Positions 3,001-30,899 of a stretch of DNA of 39,001 bases are shown piece by piece. Position 1 is the first letter of the stretch. Every line of letters begins with the position of its first letter. The translations under genes and the position numbers were made by a program. Below the pieces are notes generated by a model. The model did no database searches. It saw only the letters and a list, made by a program, of their open reading frames with translations, and had not been told where the DNA came from. Source of the stretch: a virus; IMG/VR virus record IMGVR_UViG_3300009506_000138, positions 1 through 39,001 of that record. One strand, given 5' to 3'.

Positions 3001-3745
3001 GAATTATCTTAACTCTAGAGAAACTGTAATTTTAGGAGCAGCAAAAACTATGCTAACTGGAAAGGATTGGTTAGGAAGGCCCATAGAAAGAAAGAATGAG
3101 TTACTACAATTAATTCCTTTTGAAACAGTTCTATCTATAATAGAAGCAGGACAGGCAGATGGATTATGGGAGTCCATGGCAGAAGGAGACTATAGTGAGG
3201 CTAGTAAAGATGCTTTAGCTGCTGCTGGAATAGCTCTGGCTGGATTCTCAAGTGTAGGAACTGCTTCATATCCTGTTCCTGCGGCTGCTACTAGGTCAAG
3301 CTATCAAGATATAATAGCAATGGAAGCACATGATAGGCAGTGGGATGAATTAACTCCTATAGAGCAGAAGAAGTTGCAGCTTAAGCACAGAAAAGAGTTT
3401 AAAAACTTTGAGTCATTGATTGCCAAAGAAAGAGTAAAGAATCCTATTAATAGAGAAAAAATTATAGCAGAAGAGAAAGCAGCAGGAGATAGGATTCGTA
3501 GTCAGCTTCTTCCAGTAGTAAGGGCTAAGTTAGAAGAAGTTCCTCTTAATATAAGTAGGAGACCTAAAGACTTTTATCTTAATGATGAGCGTAATAATAG
3601 ATATGAACGGTTGATAGTTGAATATCTGAATGAAAGACTTCCCAAGACTAGAAGTGAAAATGTTAATGTGCTTAAAAGCATTGTTACTTCTGCTAAGACT
3701 AAGGCGTGGCTACAATTGAAGAAAGAAATGAGTGCAGAGAAATGA
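14..3745 (+). CDS. Large multidomain (polyvalent-type) virion-associated protein with ADP-ribosyltransferase-like domain
   Basis: 1243 residues. Residues about 343-467 look like an ART-PolyVal (ADP-ribosyltransferase) domain: YHGTPN near the start, FFTTDKSDADLY about 20 residues later, then NPYKT and a C-terminal AGYDGIIAW followed by PFNDSQIKVL. The N-terminal third is charged and Gln/Lys-rich. The C-terminal half is helical, with hydrophobic stretches near residues 893-912 and 1064-1084 that could insert into membranes. Large proteins of this build in tailed phages are usually packaged in the virion and ejected with the DNA, or act as polyvalent effectors. That role is inferred here, not shown. 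It is followed at once by a membrane-peptide gene and an antisense HNH gene, so it probably closes the structural operon. The stop overlaps a new ATG (ATGA, 3742-3745). The ATG at 14 follows GGGGAG at the window edge, so it is probably the true start. Confidence 0.75.
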   Translation: MQRQGKSGRLQYIDVPIDIANKYAVSPIQEGRAEEYFFPQLRSQVPLLKETKLLPAAKEQKRLPAQTQKALPMTAAEKQSRRYKLNQDRIDKRARELYDELLAKGEEGSKKSQKKISEFIQGQNLPTLESLYERVNAGDELAVQMIQEGLYSGSPESFIEGFRTQAAKELKIPYDVNKLKNRWTYVEGSFGPEAQAQKGELVPREYGQNQPVPERQMNVFRSPSGKILMDNEIGVRKSRKRSKKFPFGYETEFYDPKTGETLTPAPELMRSTLETEGQYKQRVYGIPEVPVVEGAVTREPRLQPGVTHERGTETLPPGARQLPGGETMVSAGEAVSPKRPEKPEVVYHGTPNIDIKKPKAFSFFTTDKSDADLYQAKNVSSPTDVTSKQMKGKTFKAEVNIKNPYKTTIFDANNIVSNPKEIKKLQDAGYDGIIAWLDKSYIGDKSQYLEYVPFNDSQIKVLEVTSGPTSKSFIPERPNVVEVQPVKFETAADTAEAKIREWVPKAKRLNRKERKIARKKFRAEQAAGGEAAEQEAMEKGKPASKILRAIKRGFRGRMPRPTIEPPNLNNKEWESLSAKIIKEYPKDVFARSTAQEALDTIRIRKEIPAPYDLGLLEPILGTETVVKLANEAYRAKIYNSADYLRLVRDGLKSTFGYDIQAARALRAIMFRHPIIYSQAVGINAKSYILELANAVSTKSNYLTFLSNNYSNRLSKEMKSRPSWEFGKEIGVNYLNETPWVGGKEGRLEQYGQFPEALDKLATSEIAKNNAPKLAKVVKGWSTWLKASEKGANLGIDFALQKLVEQAQKKGDMLVKRGLSPEKINKYYKNRAKVINEFTKRVTAKNPKWRQIQNAANWIFFSPSYTVSRPMGTFRSIANLFLNPHDRTYAMQLTLSNIASIAAIGSIFAAVGHKWKMQNPTEEPLIDGTNNPTDAMWGKGRVGNHVFDVTFGEASYYRLLARIGISAYYYATEKTGISDRRTSVMGRPLAPAGEEFMNYLNSRETVILGAAKTMLTGKDWLGRPIERKNELLQLIPFETVLSIIEAGQADGLWESMAEGDYSEASKDALAAAGIALAGFSSVGTASYPVPAAATRSSYQDIIAMEAHDRQWDELTPIEQKKLQLKHRKEFKNFESLIAKERVKNPINREKIIAEEKAAGDRIRSQLLPVVRAKLEEVPLNISRRPKDFYLNDERNNRYERLIVEYLNERLPKTRSENVNVLKSIVTSAKTKAWLQLKKEMSAEK

Positions 3746-5215: not shown

Positions 5216-5902
5216 CTAATCCTCCGAATAATATTTTTCACCTTTGCTAATTGGCATAATTTCGTGGAAAGGAAGTCCATCAATTACAGCACCACACCCA
5301 CAAATAGGTCTTTCTACTGTATCCTTACCATAGGCAAATTGCCATGCTTTCTCACTGATACCACAACCTACGTCCATTGCAAAGAATCTTCTGAACTTAT
5401 TAACACTCCACTTAATTCCTGCTCTAGTATGGCAATGTCCTATTACTACTGAACACTTAATCTTATTCATTAAAGTCCATGCTGGATGAACTCCACTGCA
5501 TCCATTACCATGTCTATAATGTACCTCATCAATCTCAAAACTAAAGTCCCACTCCCATCCTGGTGTTCCCCACAACTCACCATAAGACTTGAGAATAAAC
5601 TCTGGAATATTGACAGTCTTGGCTAGTCTGGCAGGACGCTCATCGTGATTACCTATACATATCTTAGCTTTAGGAAATGCTTTATACCATTCTTTAACTC
5701 CTTTCTTTGCTAATTCATACTCATCTTTTGGTCCTGGACAGTTAGGTTCTTTAACCCAGGAACTAATGGCGTGCCAATCTACTACGTCACCAATGAAGAT
5801 TACTTGATTACATCTGTACTTCTTCTTTATATCCTTACAGAACTCAAGATACTTGGGACGAGTAGCTGGTAGATGTATGTCTCCAATAGTTAGTACCCTC
5901 AT
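5216..5902 (-). CDS. Calcineurin-like metallophosphoesterase
   Basis: 228 residues with the ordered metal-binding motifs of the calcineurin-like family: GDIHLP near residue 7 (D-x-H), GDVVDWHAIS (GDxxD), GNHDE (GNHD) and GHCHT (GHxH). These ligate two metal ions that hydrolyse phosphoesters. Phage members act on nucleic acid ends or nucleotides, and the substrate here is unknown. It sits in the nucleotide-metabolism end of the leftward operon, next to DUF4406-like and MazZ-like genes, which favours a nucleotide or DNA-repair role. Confidence 0.85.
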   Translation of the reverse strand: MRVLTIGDIHLPATRPKYLEFCKDIKKKYRCNQVIFIGDVVDWHAISSWVKEPNCPGPKDEYELAKKGVKEWYKAFPKAKICIGNHDERPARLAKTVNIPEFILKSYGELWGTPGWEWDFSFEIDEVHYRHGNGCSGVHPAWTLMNKIKCSVVIGHCHTRAGIKWSVNKFRRFFAMDVGCGISEKAWQFAYGKDTVERPICGCGAVIDGLPFHEIMPISKGEKYYSED

Positions 5903-5917
5903 AGTTTCTCCCTTCTA

Positions 5918-6319
5918 TTAGACATCTTCTAATACAATCTTCTCAAACAATACACTAGGATGCTTATCTCCAGCCAATAGTCTTGCATAAGAAATCATCT
6001 CTCTTCTAAAGTCTGAGCCTAAGAGTGCTTGAAATAGAATACGCTCTGCTTCATTTAACACTGCTTGGTCCATCTCTATTCTTACATGGTAATGATTAGG
6101 AGTAGTGGATTTAGTTATCTTGAATCCAATAACTTTAAACAATCTATCAAATAATTCAAATCTTTGCTTAAACTCTACTAGTTCTTCCTCTGAATCTAAG
6201 TCAATCTGTACTGTAAATTCATTAGGATAAACTACTCCTCTACCTTTGGATTTTGAGGCATTGTCTGCCATTTCATCCAAATATTTCAACATTTCTTCTT
6301 TAGGTTTCTTAATGTGCAT
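5918..6319 (-). CDS. Hypothetical protein
   Basis: 133 residues, unrecognised. It has alternating charged and hydrophobic stretches (FTVQIDLDSEEELVEF; YHVRIEMDQAVLNEAERI) that suggest a small alpha/beta fold without cysteine clusters or membrane segments. Its start touches the stop of the upstream DUF4406-like gene (shared base at 6319), indicating translational coupling. Confidence 0.55.
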   Translation of the reverse strand: MHIKKPKEEMLKYLDEMADNASKSKGRGVVYPNEFTVQIDLDSEEELVEFKQRFELFDRLFKVIGFKITKSTTPNHYHVRIEMDQAVLNEAERILFQALLGSDFRREMISYARLLAGDKHPSVLFEKIVLEDV

Positions 6320-6747
6320 TATCTATTCTCCTTATAATACTTCTTAGTTTGTTCTATTATATCCAGGAATCTCTTACGTATCCTACCATAGTTCATCCTA
6401 CTAACATCATCCATTATCTCAAACATAGGTAGTCCAATCTTAGAGGCTTCTGCTCTTTCCTTTTCACAACCTCCTGATTCATCCCATCTAAGAAATATCC
6501 AGCCATGACATTCATCTACAATCTTTAAATCTGCCCATAGAATATTCTCTACTGATAATTTCTTGGCATTATAAAGTAATTGTAATACTATATCAGACTC
6601 AGCAGGAACATAAAAGTTTATCTCTGGAAATAGAGTACGAAGTTTAGTGACAGCCTTGATTGCTTTTTCACAATTTCCAGCCATATCTCCTGTAGTTCCA
6701 AGAATCGGGTGGCTGATGTATATTGTAGGTTTATTGAAAATACTCAT
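6319..6747 (-). CDS. DUF4406 / nucleoside 2-deoxyribosyltransferase-like protein
   Basis: About 142 residues from ATG 6747, chosen because a GGAG lies 8 nt upstream and the ATG overlaps the previous stop (ATGA, 6744-6747). Motifs are ISHPILGTTGD near the N-terminus, VPAESDIVLQ, LWADLKIVDECHGWIFL and a C-terminal GCEKERAEASKIGLPMFEI. These match the nucleoside 2-deoxyribosyltransferase-like fold (first strand YISxP, conserved E in the exxxA-x-x-GxP end). The family swaps or hydrolyses bases on nucleosides or senses nucleotides; the exact reaction cannot be read from sequence alone. Confidence 0.7.
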   Translation of the reverse strand: MSIFNKPTIYISHPILGTTGDMAGNCEKAIKAVTKLRTLFPEINFYVPAESDIVLQLLYNAKKLSVENILWADLKIVDECHGWIFLRWDESGGCEKERAEASKIGLPMFEIMDDVSRMNYGRIRKRFLDIIEQTKKYYKENR

Positions 6748-7166
6748 TCTGGTTTCTCCAAATATGGTGGAACACAATTAGGATACTTATCAATTATTTC
6801 TCCTGCTTTAGTATTAAGTTCTTCTACTTTATTCTCATAACGTATAGGTCTATCATCAATCCAGTTTCCTTGTAACATACTATCTCTAAGTACAACCAAA
6901 CAGGCTATAGCTTTTGTTACGTGGTGAACACCTGAATCAGTATCTATATCCTCACCTTCCCAGAACTGTAAGTTCAAGTGACGGAATACTGCGTCTATAT
7001 ATGTTGATGCTCTGACTCCTATTGCTCTATAATTATGAGAACCATACTTTCTTGCACCTTCCAACATAGCTAATCCTAGTTCAGCCAGTACAGGCACAGG
7101 AATATTGTGGAAAGGTACTTTACGAATACCACAACTGTCTTTAGGATTAGACTGCTTTTGTGTCAT
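6744..7166 (-). CDS. MazZ-like dATP/dGTP diphosphohydrolase family (DUF5664)
   Basis: 140 residues. It begins NPKDSCGIRKVPFHNIPVPVLAELGLAMLEGARKYG and continues with TYIDAVFRHLNLQFWEGEDIDTDSGVHH and AIACLVVLRDSM. This is the signature of the phage dATP/dGTP pyrophosphohydrolase N-terminal family (DUF5664), with the helix-borne acidic residues (EGARKYG, FWEGED.D) that bind metal and nucleotide. Such enzymes trim the purine dNTP pool. MazZ relatives serve 2-aminoadenine phages, but most carriers of this domain do not have Z-DNA, and no PurZ is visible here. It overlaps both neighbours by 4 nt. Confidence 0.8.
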   Translation of the reverse strand: MTQKQSNPKDSCGIRKVPFHNIPVPVLAELGLAMLEGARKYGSHNYRAIGVRASTYIDAVFRHLNLQFWEGEDIDTDSGVHHVTKAIACLVVLRDSMLQGNWIDDRPIRYENKVEELNTKAGEIIDKYPNCVPPYLEKPE

Positions 7167-14996: not shown

Positions 14997-15274
14997 TACT
15001 TTTCAGATTTTCCTTGACACAATCTCCTTGACACTTACCTTACAATCATAGTGAGGTCTCCTTTCAAGAACAATTTTACTTTTTCATCTACCACTATTGG
15101 TATATATAATTGGTACTACTCCTTTTGATGTCACTACCTAAAATTTCTTGGCTCATAAGTTTCTATCCTGGCAGGACTTAGAAGAAAGTTGAAATATTTT
15201 GTAAATTCTTGCGAACAAATTTCATTTTCATTCGTATAGATATATAGTTTTATATAGTGATGAATGAAATATGT
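14997..15274. other. Noncoding gap with repeats and dyads between two endonuclease VII genes
   Basis: No credible gene in 278 nt. It holds a tandem CCTTGACAC pair (15010-15035), a direct repeat ATTGGTA-TATATA-ATTGGTA (15096-15115, period 13), the bipartite motif at 15211-15239, an inverted repeat TTTCATTC/GAATGAAA (15226-15233 and 15262-15269) around it, and a 7-bp hairpin TTTACTT/AAGTAAA (15274-15297) across the stop codon of the rightward neighbour. The pattern suggests a regulatory or DNA-binding region. Confidence 0.5.
15211..15239 (+). promoter_or_regulatory. Bipartite motif copy A (GCGAACAAA-N13-CGTATAG)
   Basis: GCGAACAAA at 15211-15219 and CGTATAG at 15233-15239, 13 nt apart. The same pair occurs at 25843-25872 (plus) and 25622-25651 (minus) with 14 nt. 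Read as a promoter it points into the 3' end of the minus-strand endonuclease VII gene, so it would make an antisense RNA ending near the hairpin at 15274-15297; it might instead be a binding site. Confidence 0.5.
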
Positions 15275-21639: not shown

Positions 21640-21684
21640 TTGACAACCAACTGTCTAAATGTCCTTGACAGCAAACTTCTCTAA
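21640..21684 (+). repeat. Two copies of a 20-base TTGACA-N4-AC-TCTCTAA motif
   Basis: TTGACAACCAACTGTCTAA at 21640-21658 and TTGACAGCAAACTTCTCTAA at 21665-21684. Two more copies on the opposite strand lie at 25710-25770. No -10 box follows at a usable distance, so operator or iteron sites are more likely than plain promoters. Confidence 0.55.
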
Positions 21685-23071: not shown

Positions 23072-23648
23072 AATATAAATCCTCCACATCAAATCCTGGT
23101 CTATATAATATTTTCTTAATATGTTCTAAAAATTCATCATAAGATAAATTTAATTTCATTTTATTACATTTTCCACAACAAGCTGCAACATTATCTATAG
23201 TGTAACCTTTGTTGTTATCAATTCTATCTATTCCATTATAAATATAATCTCCATTAAATTTAGGATTACTTTTCTTTATTGATTGTTTAGGGGATACTCC
23301 ACATAAATAACATCTCTTACTAGTAATTTCTTTAAATTGTTTCTTAGTTAATTTCCAACAGATTTTTCTAATTTTAGCTTGATATTTATATTTAGAATAA
23401 ATTTTATTTAAAGCTGCTTCTCCTTTAGATAGGCTCATTCTTTTTCTAGTAGAATCTTTAAAGTAACAACCACAGCTTTTTGTGCTTCCATTCTTTAAAC
23501 TTTTTCCTAGTATAATCTTCTCTTTTCCACAATCACATTTACATAACCATAAAGAATCTGCACCATATTTCTGTTTTCTTGAACCTGCGTCTGCAATTAC
23601 CACAAGTCGTCCAAATCTTTTTTCCAATAATTTTAATTTTCTAGCCAT
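23049..23648 (-). CDS. HNH endonuclease with N-terminal zinc domain
   Basis: 199 residues. The N-terminal part KRFGRLVVIADA, WLCKCDCGKEK and GSTKSCGC is a zinc-binding DNA-recognition domain common in free-standing phage HNH endonucleases. The HNH core is CYLCGVSP, IYNGIDRIDNNKGYTIDNVAACC and CNKMK. It lies directly after the polymerase gene, overlapping its last 8 nt, a frequent site for homing nucleases, which often target polymerase genes. A divergent paralogue is at 32680-33231. Confidence 0.85.
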   Translation of the reverse strand: MARKLKLLEKRFGRLVVIADAGSRKQKYGADSLWLCKCDCGKEKIILGKSLKNGSTKSCGCYFKDSTRKRMSLSKGEAALNKIYSKYKYQAKIRKICWKLTKKQFKEITSKRCYLCGVSPKQSIKKSNPKFNGDYIYNGIDRIDNNKGYTIDNVAACCGKCNKMKLNLSYDEFLEHIKKILYRPGFDVEDLYYEEINEK

Positions 23649-25473
23649 AGTTTTCTACCACCGTTACTTCAACAATACAAGGAACGCTTAGAGAAACACA
23701 ACCTTCCATAATAGTCTTTAACTCTTTGGCAAATGCCTCACAATGCTTCTCTGGAACCTCAAACACCAACTCATCGTGTACCATAAGAATAACAAAACCG
23801 CCATATTTTGACAGTATCTTCCTAGCCTGTATCCCTGCTATCTTGGCTTGGTCTGCACTAAACCCCTGTATCTGGAAATTAGCTGCCTGACGCTCCATCT
23901 TCATCCGTTTCCATTTGTTAGCATATTTGCTATATTCAGGGAATCTTCTTCTTCTGCCCATCAGAGTAGTTACATATTTCTGTCTAGCTAGCAGTTTCTT
24001 GACTCGCTCCTTCCAAAGAGGAACCTCTGGATAAAGAGCATCAAACTCATCTAACCACCTTTGGGCCTCTTCTACCGGTACTGCATTGTCCGCAGCTATT
24101 CGTCTTGCTGTTGCTCCATAGACAATTGGGAAGTTAATTCCGTTCTTGGCTTGATGTCTCTTTTGTTTGTATTTTTTAACAATTTCCTCATGTTCTGGAG
24201 TTCCGTCTGTAAGCTCCAAATCTGTTGCCTCAATCTCAAACACTCTAGTAGCAGTAAGCAAGTGCAAATCAAAGTCCCGATTAAAAGCGTTACGCATATT
24301 GCTATCATGGGAAACCTCCGCTAAATTTCTAAGTTCTTGTCCCGAATAATCGGCTTTTATCAATAAGTGCCGAGGTTTTGGGATAAATATCTCTCTATAA
24401 TTAAATTCTATGGGTTCTTTCTTTGGATTAGGAAGTTGCTGTAAATTAGGGTCAGAGCATGACAATCTACCAGTTGTTACCAATCCGTAGGATGGACGTA
24501 TTCTACCATCTGAGCCAATAAACTTCTCGGCTGGAGCAAGGAAAGACGTATAAAGCTTGGTCATTTTCTTGTACTTGAGAAGAAGATTAAAGAAGGGATG
24601 AGGAGTTTCCTCTCTCATTCTCTTTATCTGCTTGCTGTCCAGCATAGGATTACCTGTCTTATTATTGTATTCTACATTAGCCCCCAAAGACTCAATATAA
24701 GGAGCAAGCTGTTTACCACTTCTAAAGTTTATCGGACTATCATACTGCTTCTGTCCAAATAAATCAACTGTTATCTGATGTTCCTTGCCAAATACTTCCA
24801 ACATCTCACTTTCAATATGAATAAGTATGTCTGCACACTCATGCTTAAATGCCTCCACTTTAACTAAATCTACCAATACCCCATTCATCTCCATATCAGC
24901 CAGTACAAGCTGGAAGGGCATCTCAATCTCTTGTGCCACATAGAGCAGATTCTCCTTCTCAAGCTGCACCATCTCATGTTTCCACAACTGATAGGTCCAG
25001 ATTGCATCATTCATGGCATAGTCATAGAACTCCTCACTGTGTACATTTGCACTCACTTCGTCATATCTGTGTACATATTGGCACGGAATCCCTAACCACT
25101 CAATAGCTAGAGTCTTTAGGGAGTAGGCTCGTTTTGCTAACCTGTTCTCATCACACAACTTAGCACCTACCAGAGTACAAAATATGGACTCAGGCTCGGT
25201 ATCACAGAACTTCCTCAGACATTTAAGGTCAAATACAGCATTATGGAATAACCAGAGTCCAGACTGTACTTCCTCTGCCAGCAGTTTAAGCAATTCAGGA
25301 TTTGCCGTATAACACGCCTGAGAGCCTCTACAAAGGCTAAACCCTACAAACTCCATGCTCAGATACTCTAAACCCGTAGTTTCAAAGTCTAGAGCCGTTA
25401 CAGGGCTTTTATTGGAATCCAACCAGAGTCTAAATTCCTCAACTGTTGTAAGTATCTTCTTCGTAATCATCAT
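23641..25473 (-). CDS. polA: Family A DNA polymerase with 3'-5' exonuclease
   Basis: 610 residues, replicative PolA-type enzyme without a 5'-3' nuclease. The proofreading domain has D29 and E31 (LDFETTG), D82 (HNAVFD) and YAMND (D156). The polymerase domain has motif A ADYSGQELR (D375), motif B R439, K443 and NFPIVYG, and motif C MVHDE (H566, D567, E568). It would copy the phage genome with the primase and helicase of the same operon. Odd: there are four residues between K443 and F448, where E. coli Pol I has three, so the fingers helix has one extra residue. The start follows a weak GAAGA and overlaps the small zinc-ribbon gene by 35 nt. Confidence 0.92.
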   Translation of the reverse strand: MMITKKILTTVEEFRLWLDSNKSPVTALDFETTGLEYLSMEFVGFSLCRGSQACYTANPELLKLLAEEVQSGLWLFHNAVFDLKCLRKFCDTEPESIFCTLVGAKLCDENRLAKRAYSLKTLAIEWLGIPCQYVHRYDEVSANVHSEEFYDYAMNDAIWTYQLWKHEMVQLEKENLLYVAQEIEMPFQLVLADMEMNGVLVDLVKVEAFKHECADILIHIESEMLEVFGKEHQITVDLFGQKQYDSPINFRSGKQLAPYIESLGANVEYNNKTGNPMLDSKQIKRMREETPHPFFNLLLKYKKMTKLYTSFLAPAEKFIGSDGRIRPSYGLVTTGRLSCSDPNLQQLPNPKKEPIEFNYREIFIPKPRHLLIKADYSGQELRNLAEVSHDSNMRNAFNRDFDLHLLTATRVFEIEATDLELTDGTPEHEEIVKKYKQKRHQAKNGINFPIVYGATARRIAADNAVPVEEAQRWLDEFDALYPEVPLWKERVKKLLARQKYVTTLMGRRRRFPEYSKYANKWKRMKMERQAANFQIQGFSADQAKIAGIQARKILSKYGGFVILMVHDELVFEVPEKHCEAFAKELKTIMEGCVSLSVPCIVEVTVVENYG

Positions 25474-25588
25474 AAGAATCTTCTACAGGATAATAAGGTT
25501 CATCCTCATATTCCAATCTAAAGCAGGAATCACACATTGTCCTGCCCTGTGGGGCGATGTCTCCACAAAACTTACATCTACTTATCAT
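25439..25588 (-). CDS. Small zinc-ribbon protein at head of polymerase operon
   Basis: 49 residues: CKFCGDIAP and CDSCFRL give two CxxC knuckles, followed by an acidic Tyr-rich tail (EYEDEPYYPVEDSYDDYEED). ATG 25588 has AAAGGG 7 nt upstream. It overlaps the polymerase start by 35 nt, so it may couple polymerase translation. It is the first gene behind motif copy C (25622-25651). Confidence 0.55.
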   Translation of the reverse strand: MISRCKFCGDIAPQGRTMCDSCFRLEYEDEPYYPVEDSYDDYEEDTYNS

Positions 25589-25621
25589 TATCATTCCCTT
25601 TCATAATCATGTTTTTATTAT

Positions 25622-25651
25622 CTATACGTCATGGGTTCGGGGTTTGTTCGC
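25622..25651 (-). promoter_or_regulatory. Bipartite promoter-like motif copy C
   Basis: On the minus strand GCGAACAAA (complement of 25643-25651), 14 nt, CGTATAG (complement of 25622-25628). It faces leftward, about 35 nt before the zinc-ribbon/polymerase start. Distance between GAACAA and TATAGA is 17 nt, the normal -35/-10 spacing. Confidence 0.55.
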
Positions 25652-25709
25652 TTCTTGACCAAAAATTTTTGAAGAATGTTCTTGACTCCAACCCTTCAAA
25701 ATGACCAAG

Positions 25710-25772
25710 TTAGAGAGGTAGCTTGTCAAGATTGGGTCCGATAATGAGTCTTAGAGAGGTATGTTGTCAAGA
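25710..25772 (-). repeat. Two direct copies of the 20-base TTGACA motif
   Basis: 22-nt direct repeats at 25710-25731 and 25751-25772, identical at 20 of 22 positions and 41 nt apart (about four helical turns). On the minus strand both read TTGACA-N4-ACCTCTCTAA, matching the copies at 21640-21684. They lie between the two divergent promoter-like motifs, a natural operator position. Half-sites TCTTGAC on the plus strand (25653-25659, 25680-25686) face them. Confidence 0.6.
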
Positions 25773-25842
25773 AGAATTTGCTTATTGTAAGTTATTATTA
25801 TATAACTATTTATAAAATATTTTATTTTTTTCAGATTTTTAT

Positions 25843-25872
25843 GCGAACAAATCGGGTGTTTCATTCGTATAG
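25843..25872 (+). promoter_or_regulatory. Bipartite promoter-like motif copy B, rightward
   Basis: GCGAACAAA at 25843-25851, 14 nt, CGTATAG at 25866-25872. It faces the packaging and head genes. If it is a promoter, the transcript would begin near 25880 and open with the hairpin array at 25894-26084. Confidence 0.55.
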
Positions 25873-25893
25873 CTATATGTAGCTTTTATTTTT

Positions 25894-26084
25894 GGCTATG
25901 GATAGCCAGTGGCTAGGAGAGCCACCTAGGGCTAACGCTAACTTACTGATAGTTCCTTGGTACTAAGGAAAGATAAGTAGATTAATAACTATGAGTAGCG
26001 TTACCAAAGCCTCTGGCTAACAAACGCTCAGATAAGCTATCTGTAGCGTACCAATGCTGAAAGCTCAGAAACGCTAAAGATAAG
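25894..26084 (+). ncRNA. Leader with five hairpins and repeated AGATAAG, unknown structured RNA or packaging site
   Basis: Hairpins in order: GGCTA/TAGCC (25894-25907); GTGGCT/AGCCAC (25909-25925); TTCCTT/AAGGAA (25953-25970); a two-level stem AGCGTT/AACGCT (25997-26002 and 26023-26028) with inner AGCC/GGCT; and a similar two-level stem TAGCGT/ACGCTA (26044-26049 and 26071-26076) with inner GCT/AGC. The last three are each followed within 0-1 nt by AGATAAG (25971, 26030, 26078). The last two are 41-nt units (25996-26036, 26044-26084) with conserved outer stem and ACCAA but changed, still-pairing inner stems. This suggests selection on structure. Antitermination RNA (as in HK022 put) or a terminase recognition site are the options I consider; neither is shown. 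Confidence 0.5.
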
Positions 26085-26130
26085 TAGCTTGTGGGATTCT
26101 ATACTTTAGTGTTTTACTTGGAGCAGAAAA

Positions 26131-26322
26131 ATGTGTAAAAAAGTTTGTAAGAATTGTAAAAAAGAATTGCCAGTAGAAAAATTTTACAGAAGAGATGATA
26201 GAGATAGTTTCTACGCCTGGTGTTCAGATTGTATGATTTCAGGAGGAAGAGAAGTGGATTATCCCCCTAAAAAAGAACATGGCAGTGGTAGAATTTACGT
26301 TAGTCTTGGGGAATTAGATTAA
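26131..26322 (+). CDS. Small zinc-knuckle protein (endonuclease VII N-terminal-like)
   Basis: 63 residues: CKNCKKELPVEKF and CSDCM with an aromatic link (YAWC). The pattern equals the N-terminal zinc knuckles of the two endonuclease VII proteins of this window (CSKCKKNKP..WCKDC), but without the HNH half. GGAG lies 7 nt before the ATG. First gene of the rightward block. Confidence 0.6.
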   Translation: MCKKVCKNCKKELPVEKFYRRDDRDSFYAWCSDCMISGGREVDYPPKKEHGSGRIYVSLGELD

Positions 26323-26375: not shown

Positions 26376-26966
26376 ATGGCTACTAAGAAAAGAACAATTA
26401 AGAAGTTTGAAATCCAGAAACGCAGTGATATTTCTGCTGATTTACTTCCCGTAGTGCAGAATCTCACGGCCCAGGGATACACCTTAGCTGATGTGGGTAT
26501 TCTGTTAGGCTTTGCTGGCAAAGACCCCGAAGGCTGGTTGAAGAGGCTTGAGGCCAAGTTTCCCACGCTGGCAGAGGCTATCCAGGCCGGAAAGAGCATG
26601 GGCGACATTGAGTTGGTCAAGACCGCTTTTGAGCAGGCTCTTGGGCATTGGGTGGACGGTGGTGAGGAAATCCGCTACAAAGCAATCCAAGACCCCCAGA
26701 ACCCCACTAAGGTCAAGTGGATTCAGTCAGCCAAGAAGAAACTTCCTGCTAAATTTATCCCTGGAAATGGGAAATTATTGTTCCAACTGCTCTGTTCTAG
26801 GTTACCAGAATACTTCTCAGATACCAGAAGAGTAGAAATTGATAAGAAAGTGCTGGAATTGAAGGGCAATGTCAAGGATGAGATACTTGGATTTGCGGGT
26901 GCGTTAGCCGCAGCAGTAGAAAATAAGGAAATTGAGTGTAAATTTGTGGAGAAAGAAAATGAATGA
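26376..26966 (+). CDS. terS: Small terminase subunit
   Basis: 196 residues. An N-terminal helix-turn-helix region (GYTLADVGILLGFAGKDPEGWLKRLEAK) is followed by a long helix (FPTLAEAIQAGKSMGDIELVKTAFEQALG) and a C-terminal part ending in acidic helices. This is the usual plan of small terminases, which bind the packaging site and deliver DNA to the large subunit; the large-subunit gene is two genes downstream. Two oddities: no ribosome binding site in the 20 nt before the ATG, and residues about 28-115 are encoded by clearly GC-richer DNA (57-58% over 26521-26640) than the surroundings (about 35-43%). Confidence 0.75.
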   Translation: MATKKRTIKKFEIQKRSDISADLLPVVQNLTAQGYTLADVGILLGFAGKDPEGWLKRLEAKFPTLAEAIQAGKSMGDIELVKTAFEQALGHWVDGGEEIRYKAIQDPQNPTKVKWIQSAKKKLPAKFIPGNGKLLFQLLCSRLPEYFSDTRRVEIDKKVLELKGNVKDEILGFAGALAAAVENKEIECKFVEKENE

Positions 26967-27138
26967 GGATAGTTCTTATTGGGGATTACCAACATATAAT
27001 GGAACTCCTATAACTGAACTTACTTATGAGCAATTTTTGAATATGTTGGACAGGTTGTTGATTGAGGATGAGGATTTTAAATGGTTTAAGAAAGAAATAT
27101 GTCCAATATTAAATAAGTTTTTTCAAAGAGACAGATGA
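26959..27138 (+). CDS. Small hypothetical protein between terminase genes
   Basis: 59 residues from ATG 26959 (GGAG 7 nt upstream), overlapping the small-terminase end by 8 nt and the large-terminase start by 4 nt. Aromatic and acidic (SSYWGLPTYNGTPITELTYE), C-terminal helix FKWFKKEICPILNKFF. Probably packaging-related by position; unrecognised. Confidence 0.5.
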   Translation: MNEDSSYWGLPTYNGTPITELTYEQFLNMLDRLLIEDEDFKWFKKEICPILNKFFQRDR

Positions 27139-29123
27139 TAATTAAACCTTTTGATAATGCGGAAGATTTTTTTAAGCAAATTCCTCTGGAAATAGGGGAA
27201 AATCTAAAGTTTAGAATTAAATTACATGAGTTACTTACTGGAAATTTAAAAGGTCAAGAAATATTTCTACAATTGTGCAGAGATTATCTGCCAATTTGGT
27301 TTAATACTGTGGCCTGGACACTTAATCCACAGAAAAAAGCAGGAGAACGTAACCGTCCATTTATTTTAAGGCCAGCACAGGTTCCTGCGGTTCTGACTTT
27401 AGATGATTGTTTGGATATAGGTAAAGATGTTGGTATAAATAAAACTCGTAAGCAGGGTGCATCTGAGTTATGTTGTAAAATATTTACAGCAAAGTGTCTA
27501 TTAGAGCCAGATGCCCACTTTATTTTGGGTTCTCGTAAGAAAGAGTTAGTTGATAACTTTGGAGACCCATATACGCTCTTTGCAAAAGTTGATAATGTTA
27601 TGGAGTGCCTTCCTACTTGGTGGAAGATTCGTAGTGGATATGACCCGAATAAGAACCGTAAGGATATGAACATCATAATTCCAGAAACAGGTTCTTCAAT
27701 GACAGGGGAAACCACAAATGAATCATTCTCTGCTGGAAGTCGTGCCACTGGTCTATTGTTAGACGAGTTTGGGCGTGTAGATTATACTATAGCAGAAGCA
27801 ATTGAGGGGTCAGTTCACGATGTCTGTAATTGCATTATTTATAGTTCTACTCATTGGTTGGGTGTTAATCACACCTTCAATAAAGTCATTCACAAACCTA
27901 CTACAGAGCTTGTATCGCTGCTTTGGTATGACAATCCAGAGGAAAGAGCAGGACTATATGAGACACCAAAACCAGGACAGATTGAGATAATAGATTGGGA
28001 TTATTACAGAGATAAGTTTCACTCATTGGCAGATGAGAATGTGGTTATTCTTTCTTGTATTGAAGAGTTTGACCCTAATAGTGATAAGATTCAATTTGTA
28101 GCAGATGGATTATTGAATTATCCGTCTCCTTACCGTTCTCCATTTTTTGATTATGAGAACTACAAACGTCTTGGTAATAGAAGGGACTTTATCTGTAACG
28201 TCTGTGCTGTACCTCATGGTGCTTCTGATGCCCCATTTGACCAAGTAATGCTAGAAGCTATCAGGAAAAAAGATATTCGTCCTCCAGACTTTAGAGGAGA
28301 GCTATTCTTTTCTGATAATCCAATGGAAGGTGAGGTTGAGGTTTATTGGGATTATGGTCAGAGGAGGTTGGAGTGGTGGGGAGAACTTCCCTTTAGGAGA
28401 CCTAATCAGAGACACAATTATATCTTTGGTGTTGACCCTTCCTATGGATTAGGTTCAGCTAACTCTGCTATTATGATAACAGATGTGAATACTGGAGAAC
28501 AGGTTGGGTCATGGGCAGATTCAAATACCAAGCCAGAGGAATTAGCAGATATTTCAGTTGCTCTTGCTTCCTGGGTTGGTGGAGTAGATTGGCCTTTTAT
28601 TATTTGGGAAAGCAACGCTGGTTGTGGACAGAATTTTGGTAATAGACTTGATTATTGGGGTTATCCTAATAGATATACCCAGCGTAGAGAGGACTCCAAG
28701 ACTAGAAAGAAAGTTAAGAAATGGGGTTGGGCCTCTAATCCCAATTCAAAAGAAAAGCTTCTTAGTGAACTTGCGGTAGCTTTATCTGCTGGATTGACTA
28801 CTAAGAAAAAATCAGTATCAGAATGGAGATGTCTAATAATCCATGATGAAGAATTATTGGATGAGTTAGCAGATTATGTATTCAATGAAAAAGGTAAGGG
28901 AATTGTTGCTTCCTCTAAGGCAGACCTCTCCACTGGAGCAGCAGAGCGTCACGGTGACAGGGGTATCGCAATGGGACTGTGTGTTCTTGGTATGAAAGAA
29001 CAGATTGAGGGAAGTGTTCCTTCTCCTAACAGGATTCCCAAAGGAAGTTTTGAATATTATAGACAGCAATACGAAGAACAGAAACAAAGAGAAAAGAAGG
29101 ATAGTAAAAGATTCTTATTTTAG
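27135..29123 (+). CDS. terL: Large terminase subunit
   Basis: 662 residues. ATPase domain: the KTRKQGAS region (about 103-110) stands where terminases have their Walker A-type loop, and Walker B is TGLLLDEFGRV with D210 and E211. Nuclease domain (RNase H fold): D434 in FGVDPSYG, E492 in IIWESNAG and D608 in ERHGDRGIA, the three acidic residues expected for the metal site. It pumps DNA into the prohead and cuts the concatemer. ATG overlaps the previous stop (ATGA). Highly confident by motif order and context. Confidence 0.9.
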   Translation: MIIKPFDNAEDFFKQIPLEIGENLKFRIKLHELLTGNLKGQEIFLQLCRDYLPIWFNTVAWTLNPQKKAGERNRPFILRPAQVPAVLTLDDCLDIGKDVGINKTRKQGASELCCKIFTAKCLLEPDAHFILGSRKKELVDNFGDPYTLFAKVDNVMECLPTWWKIRSGYDPNKNRKDMNIIIPETGSSMTGETTNESFSAGSRATGLLLDEFGRVDYTIAEAIEGSVHDVCNCIIYSSTHWLGVNHTFNKVIHKPTTELVSLLWYDNPEERAGLYETPKPGQIEIIDWDYYRDKFHSLADENVVILSCIEEFDPNSDKIQFVADGLLNYPSPYRSPFFDYENYKRLGNRRDFICNVCAVPHGASDAPFDQVMLEAIRKKDIRPPDFRGELFFSDNPMEGEVEVYWDYGQRRLEWWGELPFRRPNQRHNYIFGVDPSYGLGSANSAIMITDVNTGEQVGSWADSNTKPEELADISVALASWVGGVDWPFIIWESNAGCGQNFGNRLDYWGYPNRYTQRREDSKTRKKVKKWGWASNPNSKEKLLSELAVALSAGLTTKKKSVSEWRCLIIHDEELLDELADYVFNEKGKGIVASSKADLSTGAAERHGDRGIAMGLCVLGMKEQIEGSVPSPNRIPKGSFEYYRQQYEEQKQREKKDSKRFLF

Positions 29124-29131
29124 AGTAAATC

Positions 29132-29917
29132 ATGGCAAAGAAACAACATCAACTTTATGAGACAGATAAAAAGACTCCTTTTCCTCTTAGATTACAGCGT
29201 CTTTGTAAGTTATGGCAGAAGAAGAATGAGGTAGTTTTAAAAAATGAGATGAAGCTTCTGAGACTGTGGGCCAGTGGTTTCTTTGACAGTCAGTACGCAA
29301 GAGAACATCTTGTTAATATTCTTGATAGGGGAGTGTTTACTATTGTTCCTTATCTGGTAGAAGGAAATCCTAAAGTAGATGTCACTACTCTAGTAACTAA
29401 CTATCGTCCCTGGGCCTATACAACTAAACTAGCATTGAATTATCTTATTGAAAAGAAGATGAATCTTGCTGAGAATGTGTTTATTCCAGTAGCTATTAAT
29501 TCAATGTTTGGTGCTGGTATTACTAGAGTATTTACAGAGTATGATAGAAATATTAACTTTGATAATGAAGTAATCAAGAGTGGGCATCCTACAATAAAAG
29601 TAATCCATGACTCTGATTACATTGGAGACCCTATTGGCAAGACTAGAAGTGATTTTATCTTTGAGGGAGATGTTTATAGACTTCCTACCGAGTATGCAAA
29701 AGAGTTATTCAAGGGCAAGGATAAGCACGGTAATCAGATAGCAGATTATATTGAACCTGACTGTAAGTTAGCAAGCGATTTCTCTCCTGAGAATCTTACT
29801 AATCCTGACTTCAATCTTGGAAAGTACGCTATCAGAGATTATACAACCTTCATAGACCTTTATCTGTACGATGAAAATGTTACAATCACCATAATGCCAG
29901 AGGGACGTAGAAGTTGA
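29132..29917 (+). CDS. Portal protein, N-terminal part (frameshifted)
   Basis: 261 residues ending in a premature TGA at 29915-29917. Content (TTLVTNYRPWAYTTKLALNYL, AVINSMFGAGITRVF, TIKVIHDSDYIGDP) is portal-like and the homologous sequence continues in the next reading frame. The frame is lost at a GGG run (29902-29904): removing one G would read MPE-DVEVEEDG and join the two halves into a portal of about 590 residues. Either an assembly/sequencing indel or a real frameshift. The portal forms the DNA-entry ring of the head. Confidence 0.7.
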   Translation: MAKKQHQLYETDKKTPFPLRLQRLCKLWQKKNEVVLKNEMKLLRLWASGFFDSQYAREHLVNILDRGVFTIVPYLVEGNPKVDVTTLVTNYRPWAYTTKLALNYLIEKKMNLAENVFIPVAINSMFGAGITRVFTEYDRNINFDNEVIKSGHPTIKVIHDSDYIGDPIGKTRSDFIFEGDVYRLPTEYAKELFKGKDKHGNQIADYIEPDCKLASDFSPENLTNPDFNLGKYAIRDYTTFIDLYLYDENVTITIMPEGRRS

Positions 29918-30899
29918 AGAGGATGGTCCTAAAGAATCTCCTTATGATTATCTTGGATATAAATTCTTTCCTAACTGTTCTGTGCCTATTCCTCCTGCTT
30001 GGTTCTGGCATGACCAAGATGTGTCAATTAATATTGTAGCTAAGAACGCAAGAGAGCAGGCCGAATCTCAGAAAGACCTTATTCTTGCTGACCCAACAAA
30101 TAAAGAACTTGCTAAGTCAGTGACTAATGCTAAGAATATGGACGTTCTTGTAGTCAAAGACCCCAAAGAAGGAGTCCAGAAAATATCAGTTGGTGGAATG
30201 AATACAGAAGCTTTACCTTATATGGACTTTGTGGAAGCTCTGTTTAATAAGAGTGGTGGAACTCCTGATATTATGCGGGGTACAGATAATTCTGCTCCTA
30301 CACTTGGTCAGGAGAGAATGATATTCCAGAACGCTAGTAGAATTGTTGAGAATATGCACACCCGCTATGAGAACTTTATGACTTCGGTTATTCGTAAGTT
30401 AGCATGGCGTGTCTGGACAGACCCAACTATTTATATTCCAGTGATTAAGACCGTACCTGGACTTGGTGAGTTACCAGAAGTATTCTCCCAGGCTGATAAG
30501 GTAGGGGACTTCTATGATTTTACTTTTGACATTGTGCCATACAGTACACAAAAGATGAGTCCAGAAATGAAGTATCAGCGTATGTTACAGTATGCTACAC
30601 AATGGATATTACCTTCATTGCCTCTGGCACAAAGTCAAGGTGCAGAGTTTGATATACCGTTAGCAACAGAGTTGATGGGTCAGTGGTTAGGATTTGATAA
30701 TTTCTCACAGTTATATAATACTGGTATTCCCAAACCAACAGATATGGTTCCATATAGTATGCAACCAAACAAGCAAAAAAAGAATAAAGCTCCAGGTATG
30801 TTATCAGATGCCTTTGGAGCAACTATGGCTAGCCGTGAAGCTAACAGCCAGAGACAAGAGCAACTTGTAGAAACAAAGGAGACTGAAAATGCGGTCTGA
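29904..30899 (+). CDS. Portal protein, C-terminal part (frameshifted)
   Basis: Continuation of the portal in the other frame: DVEVEEDGPKESPYDYLGY, then SVPIPPAWFW, and the typical NKSGGTPDIMRGTDNSAPTL with GQERMI, a long helix and a C-terminal Lys-rich tail. There is no good independent start: a GTG at 29982 has no clear ribosome binding site, so this part is likely made only as part of a full portal. The open frame reaches back to 29895. Overlaps the protease start by 11 nt. Confidence 0.7.
   Translation, partial: DVEVEEDGPKESPYDYLGYKFFPNCSVPIPPAWFWHDQDVSINIVAKNAREQAESQKDLILADPTNKELAKSVTNAKNMDVLVVKDPKEGVQKISVGGMNTEALPYMDFVEALFNKSGGTPDIMRGTDNSAPTLGQERMIFQNASRIVENMHTRYENFMTSVIRKLAWRVWTDPTIYIPVIKTVPGLGELPEVFSQADKVGDFYDFTFDIVPYSTQKMSPEMKYQRMLQYATQWILPSLPLAQSQGAEFDIPLATELMGQWLGFDNFSQLYNTGIPKPTDMVPYSMQPNKQKKNKAPGMLSDAFGATMASREANSQRQEQLVETKETENAV

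Follow-up and report, generated by a model that had tools for sequence, protein, structure and literature searches.

In phages related to the one described here, the untranslated leader ahead of the terminase genes carries a small hairpin unit whose structure is kept by compensatory changes. The DNA analysed, called the window, is the stretch of 39,001 nucleotides at positions 1 to 39,001 of IMG/VR record IMGVR_UViG_3300009506_000138. Its own structured leader (25880..26130, plus strand), with the divergent promoter region on one side and the first of the rightward genes on the other, holds three hairpins, each with the heptamer AGATAAG behind it. Judged by their geometry, place, strand and tail, these units are likely, though unproven, members of the same family. 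Our tentative reading is that the window shows how a single lineage has shaped a more general phage leader RNA, the transcribed units of which would act in cis on the transcription machinery in the manner of put or nut sites. The original prediction had proposed that the rightward terminase transcript begins with a structured leader undergoing structure-preserving change, and structure rather than sequence is indeed what the relatives conserve.

The intergenic region of the window (25474-26130) separates a leftward DNA polymerase gene (23641..25473, minus strand; phrog_17, E 4e-113) from a rightward series of an HNH-like ORF, the small terminase gene (TerS), the large terminase gene (TerL) and the portal gene. 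The first gene after the leader is a 63-aa zinc-ribbon, HNH/endonuclease VII-like ORF (26131..26322, plus strand) that is conserved in relatives. TerS (26376..26966, plus strand) is homologous to ORFs of L003 and L128-L132, and the member of the TerS family in G007 matches phrog_309, terminase small subunit. TerL (27135..29123, plus strand; phrog_2) has relatives at 55-74% identity. No ORF of 60 aa begins inside the leader (25880-26130), and no terminator-like site was found there.

Hairpin 1 is a simple stem, TTCCTT/AAGGAA (25953-25970), without a triloop and possibly extended by CTTACT/AGTAG; AGATAAG follows directly from 25971 (feature 25953..25977, plus strand). Unit 2 (25997-26028) reads AGCGT-TACCAA-AGCC-TCT-GGCT-AACAA-ACGCT, and after a 1-nt spacer, C, the heptamer starts at 26030 (25997..26036, plus strand). 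Unit 3 (26044-26076) reads TAGCGT-ACCAAT-GCT-GAA-AGC-TCAGAA-ACGCTA, and AGATAAG starts at 26078 after the 1-nt spacer A (26044..26084, plus strand). Units 2 and 3 have unlike inner stems, and pairing is preserved in each (AGCC/GGCT and GCT/AGC). The 12-mer AAAGATAAGTAG is present in two copies, at 25969-25980 and 26076-26087. On the 5' side of the leader, two neighbouring simple hairpins, GGCTAT/ATAGCC and GTGGCT/AGCCAC (25894..25925, plus strand), lack the AGATAAG tail. The sequence thus agrees with what had been predicted: three hairpins with AGATAAG within 0-1 nt of each, and two 41-nt units with paired but differing inner stems.

In the whole window AGATAAG occurs 20 times against 12.4 expected, which is a mild enrichment only. 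The arrangement itself was rare in shuffled sequence of the same composition, a control that had been proposed with the prediction. When the 657-nt intergenic region was shuffled with its dinucleotide content kept, 3 of 1500 sequences had some heptamer in three copies, every copy immediately after a hairpin. At least two units of such geometry, scoring as high, were given by 3 of 1500 shuffles of the same region, a figure that is somewhat flattered because the unit-geometry score was devised after the window and the relatives had been viewed. A chance origin of the hairpins was ruled out by the shuffles together with the covariation in relatives.

RNA folding, another check proposed earlier, gave a divided result. 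The 251-nt leader folded more stably than its shuffles (z -2.77; 2 of 200), and that part of the expectation stood. The three hairpins themselves were not all recovered: the free global fold was better by 7.4 kcal/mol than the fold in which they were enforced and had units 2 and 3 replaced by competing pairings. With a maximum pairing span of 50 nt the three hairpins had probabilities above 0.9; this was not reproduced when the span was 60 nt and the folded segment differed slightly. Competing long-range pairs, and a hairpin in which the 3' arm of unit 2 pairs with the 5' arm of unit 3, were predicted to be as strong or stronger unless pairing is local. AGATAAG can also pair with upstream sequence in the predicted folds of the window. 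The window hairpins are therefore unproven by energy prediction alone, and covariation in the relatives is the stronger evidence.

The relatives comprise more than 80 IMG/VR contigs obtained by profile searches with TerL and TerS alignments. Among cultured phages no DNA relative of the intergenic region was found, and homologs were limited to distant TerL and polymerase proteins; the TerL query found no relatives among prokaryote genomes. Many of the contigs keep the order of a leftward polymerase gene, an intergenic leader and rightward TerS-TerL, and in several of them the small HNH-like ORF precedes TerS. Their leaders contain a recurring unit whose outer stem has 5-7 bp, followed by a roughly symmetric internal loop of about 6+6 nt, an inner stem of 3 bp and a 3-nt loop. 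Examples are AGTGCC-TTGATA-AAC-AAA-GTT-ATATAT-GGCACT in L139, AGTGTC-TTAATA-AGC-AGA-GCT-ATATAT-GACACT in L145, AACACTC-AATTA-AGC-GAA-GCT-AATAA-GAGTGTT in L167 and AACGCCT-TAATAA-GGC-AAA-GCC-AATAAT-AGGCGTT in L170. A descriptor scan placed the unit before TerS, or before the ORF upstream of TerS, in most near relatives. The covariance search upstream of related terminase genes that had been suggested for the original motif was carried out with a model, R1, which found the unit upstream of TerS at about 20 loci of related contigs.

Covariation was measured in an alignment of 12 relatives that had been built without knowledge of the structure. There 92.5% of cells were paired and 7 of 9 pairs were changed on both sides, whereas controls with slid partners were only 23-40% paired. 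The covariation score was 0.539 against 0.212 in shuffles and was reached by none of 500 shuffles; row L140 is off by one column, which weakens the count rather than helping it. In a set of 28 units, the alignment of which was fitted to the model and contains four antisense readings, 54 double-changed cells were counted (0 of 500 shuffles). Among 29 hand-delimited units there were 15 distinct outer stems, and all 145 pairs were Watson-Crick with no G-U. Two MAFFT alignments, A6 and A8, in which members stood out of place, did not enter the counts. The relatives thus show covariation in excess of shuffles and slid controls, as is generally expected of a structured RNA. Over all of IMG/VR a degenerate pattern of the unit matched contigs of this family only, and in 84,980 species genomes it had zero matches; in the searched records the unit was absent away from operon leaders. 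Some subclades carry further leader structures. In L132, L148, L151 and L158 one or two extra hairpins with the loop AGGGA or AAGGA (ATGTTACAGGGATGTAACAT and similar) occur just before the unit. In L139, L140, L145, L154, L155 and L159 a conserved AAAAGATA(A)CG, a hairpin with a CTAATCATAGCC-type loop and a small hairpin, GCTAAAGC, are found upstream of it.

R1, which was trained on the relatives, scored nothing significant on the window units (best 12.7 bits, E 2, on the wrong strand), so the link between the window and the family rests on geometry, place, orientation and tail. The window units agree with the family in the order of outer stem, symmetric loop, inner stem and triloop, in position and in strand, and the geometry of unit 3, 6-6-3-3-3-6-6, is exactly the consensus of the relatives' units. 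The usual tail behind the hairpin in relatives is AA(A/G)TATAA(T/G), with the variants AAATATAATA, AAGTATAAGTA, ATATATAAG and GTATATAAG; the window has AAGATAAGTAG and AGATAAGCTA. The first of these is close to AAGTATAAGTA of L235, and in L165 and L167 a simple hairpin followed by an exact AGATAAG shares the leader with a family unit. AGATAAG is probably this lineage's form of a general A/U-rich tail. The three window hairpins could instead have arisen independently in this lineage and do no more than stand where relatives have the family unit. The missing R1 score would agree with that, as would the different internal loops (ACCAAU/UCAGAA in the window against UUAAUA/AUAUAU in relatives). We regard it as improbable in view of the exact geometry, place and strand of unit 3, the tail shared nearly with L235 and the mixed leaders of L165 and L167. 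A blind scan of IMG/VR for triple AGATAAG returned, among the matches listed, mostly unrelated repeats and none resembling the leader.

A second unit-bearing place was located with R1 in the full records G004, G005, G006, G007, G008 and G012, in tandem in G006 and G012. It is the head of another, non-packaging operon of small genes, 8-10 kb away. In G005 the model matched the antisense reading, and the sense triloop of that unit is UUU. G007 (46.6 kb) has exactly two copies of the promoter-like sequence CCCCCAATT(A/C)TGGGGTATATATAGAGGGG, one ahead of the rightward structural genes and one ahead of a leftward operon, and a unit follows each. Because the unit also heads the second operon and follows both promoter-like sites of G007, an element of the transcript is favoured over a cos or pac site. 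The parallel first drawn with cos/pac recognition arrays is accordingly disfavoured, as units before a non-packaging operon do not mark a single packaging site. In the window no second-locus unit was found. Two candidate places for a second leader were rejected: the surroundings of the copy of motif B at 15.2 kb show no structure (z +1.8), and the partial TTAGAGAGGTANNTTGTCAAG copy at 21664 has no units.

The promoter-like sequence adjacent to the leader in the family, TATAGAGGGG, is different from motif B of the window, TGCGAACAAA-N11-TTCATTCGTATA (25842..25871, plus strand). The latter, a possible promoter or operator just upstream of the leader, sits rightly placed for the start of the rightward transcript, and a similar copy occurs at 15210-15245. 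Read by eye, a sequence like motif B is present on the other strand and points towards the polymerase gene in the more distant relatives L193, L197, L201, L202 and L205. At 25842-25878 and 15210-15245 the window has the motif TGCGAAC...ATTCGTATA, which looks like an ECF-type GAAC/CGTA promoter or else an operator with partial symmetry. The direct repeat TTAGAGAGGTANNTTGTCAAG (25710..25730 and 25751..25771, plus strand) is possibly the counterpart of the TATAGAGGGG site of relatives, or an operator over a leftward -35. A partial third copy (21664-21684, minus strand) precedes a leftward gene and a strong sigma-70-like site; all three copies have a chance expectation of 0.02. Promoter-like sequences of T7-like look, CCCCC...TATATAGAGGGG (or ACTATAGAGGGAGACC), occur in L148, L154, L155, L156, L193, L197, L201, L202 and L205 and at 3210 and 11894 of G007. 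A T7-like RNA polymerase was sought in 17 records and none was found, with T7 itself detected as a working control; such an enzyme was therefore rejected as the reader of the TATAGAGGGG site, and a host-type polymerase is probably used.

In the family, one to three units lie in an operon's 5' untranslated leader and have the same orientation as the genes, with a purine-rich A/U tail after each hairpin. Under the put/nut-like reading, the leader would be transcribed, the units in the nascent RNA would act in cis on the transcription complex, and polymerase entering the long operons would be modified, for example to become resistant to pausing or termination. The sense orientation of the unit, its location after the promoter-like site and before the first gene, and its conserved internal loop all suit a hairpin formed in nascent RNA; the missing T7-like polymerase in 17 records fits the use of a host-type polymerase. 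Several results point the other way. The late operon of the window has 8 intrinsic terminators against 8.0 expected, so read-through of intrinsic terminators is not visibly needed there. The absence of G-U among 145 pairs is unusual for an RNA helix, and competing folds exist. In one 19-kb stretch of G007, terminator-like matches numbered 31 against 13.7 by chance, several of them inside genes and most of them weak. In our assessment put/nut-like action would rank first, with protection or processing of mRNA and binding of a protein as close rivals.

Protection of the 5' end of mRNA from RNases, or processing by RNase III or RNase E at sites like those of T7, is a possible though somewhat unlikely function. 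The units lie in the 5' untranslated region, often just before the first ribosome-binding site (in L132, L151 and L158 the hairpin is followed by TATATAGGAGACAG...ATG), and their number varies from one to three. A protective stem, however, would need no conserved internal loop, triloop or tail. RNase III acts on about two turns of duplex, for which the inner stem of 3 bp is short. The RNase III sites of T7 are likewise irregular hairpins with internal loops in untranslated regions of phage mRNA, but they have longer duplexes on either side of the loop, whereas the family unit has its 3-bp inner stem, a leader position only and a conserved tail.

More doubtful is a site for a phage RNA-binding protein that would regulate the translation or transcript fate of both operons as the operator of an RNA regulon. 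The conserved internal loop and apical triloop recall protein-bound phage hairpins such as boxB, a like unit is present at two operons, and a candidate partner could be the conserved 63-aa zinc-ribbon ORF that comes first behind the leader in the window as well as in several relatives. Yet the distance from unit to first start codon varies widely, the nearest annotated gene lying for example between 56 and about 450 nt away, no candidate protein was seen to co-occur strictly with the unit, and several unit-bearing loci have no detectable HNH-like ORF.

A DNA element (a cruciform or single-strand hairpin serving as an N4-like promoter, a replication origin, or a terminase cos/pac array) would suit the exclusively Watson-Crick stems, since missing G-U pairs keep a DNA hairpin possible, the several inner hairpins of the stable C(GNA)G type and the adjoining terminase genes, but it is very unlikely given the unit at the head of a non-packaging operon, the constant sense placement 3' of the promoter-like site and 5' of the start codon, the lack of a T7-type RNA polymerase in 17 records, and arms that vary freely yet stay complementary, which disfavours a double-stranded operator and excludes a conserved double-strand palindrome.

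The put/nut-like reading can be set beside known leader RNAs. A put RNA binds the beta' zinc-binding domain of RNA polymerase and so suppresses pausing and termination, and a lambda-type nut site combines boxA, a neighbouring boxB hairpin and an N-type protein. Lambda nut sites and rrn boxB-boxA leaders resemble the family in having a hairpin together with a short, linear, conserved motif towards the 5' end of the operon transcript; the family tail, AGAUAAG or AAGUAUAAU, is not boxA, and the unit has an internal loop and triloop in contrast to a GNRA-like pentaloop. The two put sites of HK022 are cis-acting hairpins in the leaders of two operons, each downstream of a phage promoter, so the earlier parallel with them is fair functionally; their internal non-canonical pairs matter, and no dedicated protein is necessary (PMC9378689). 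Like putL and putR, the units are leader hairpins at two operons in the relatives, with one locus found in the window. Unlike the put sites, which are about 70 nt of two stem-loops in a V with an RNA triplex at early operons, the family has repeated single units of 33 nt with a symmetric loop, triloop and A/U tail, and one place is the terminase operon. R1 gave no significant match in HK022 (12.9 bits, E 1.9), and no similarity to putL or putR in sequence or structure was found. The cabRNA of staphylococcal phages is also a structured RNA from the terminase region (PMC10686824), but it is part of the coding sequence of terS-terL and conserves neither sequence nor shape, whereas the family unit is a non-coding leader with covariation.

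It had been stated that no described element of such form was known. In agreement, Rfam 15 gave no family above the gathering cut-off, a relaxed search of the window leader gave a chance match only, and no such element was met in the limited open-access literature searched. The motif is new, and it is a known sort of thing, a phage cis-acting leader RNA. It is rather unlikely that it founds a new structural class, in which a protein-independent leader RNA built from a modular, tandem-repeatable hairpin would modify RNA polymerase and serve the two main operons in a widespread family of phages that are uncultivated. Very few phage RNAs are known that influence transcription in cis while still part of the nascent chain. 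The covarying hairpin described here, found at two operons across a whole phage family in which no T7-type polymerase was detected, is a compact and testable candidate, and the sequence model of the unit lets others locate the element elsewhere.

Several coding features were also observed. The portal gene of the window is split across two frames (29132-29917 and 29910-30899, with the break at about 29.9 kb); in L003 and L004 it is a single ORF of 588 aa, and the split is an assembly error or a real frameshift. TerL is intact in the window, and in several relatives it is broken by about 0.2-0.7 kb at one shared site (query residue about 300-314), namely at 1418-1644 in L128, 2861-3389 in L129, 402-1080 in L125 and 13858-14039 in L155/G007. 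The L129 insert matched no intron family in Rfam. A rightward ORF of 1243 aa at the start of the contig (14-3745) has a weak match, below the cut-off, to the ADP-ribosyltransferase domain of polyvalent proteins. The early region of G007 encodes a protein of 527 aa (5422-7005, minus strand) with no PHROG or PDB match, which is a candidate for a function in transcription or replication.
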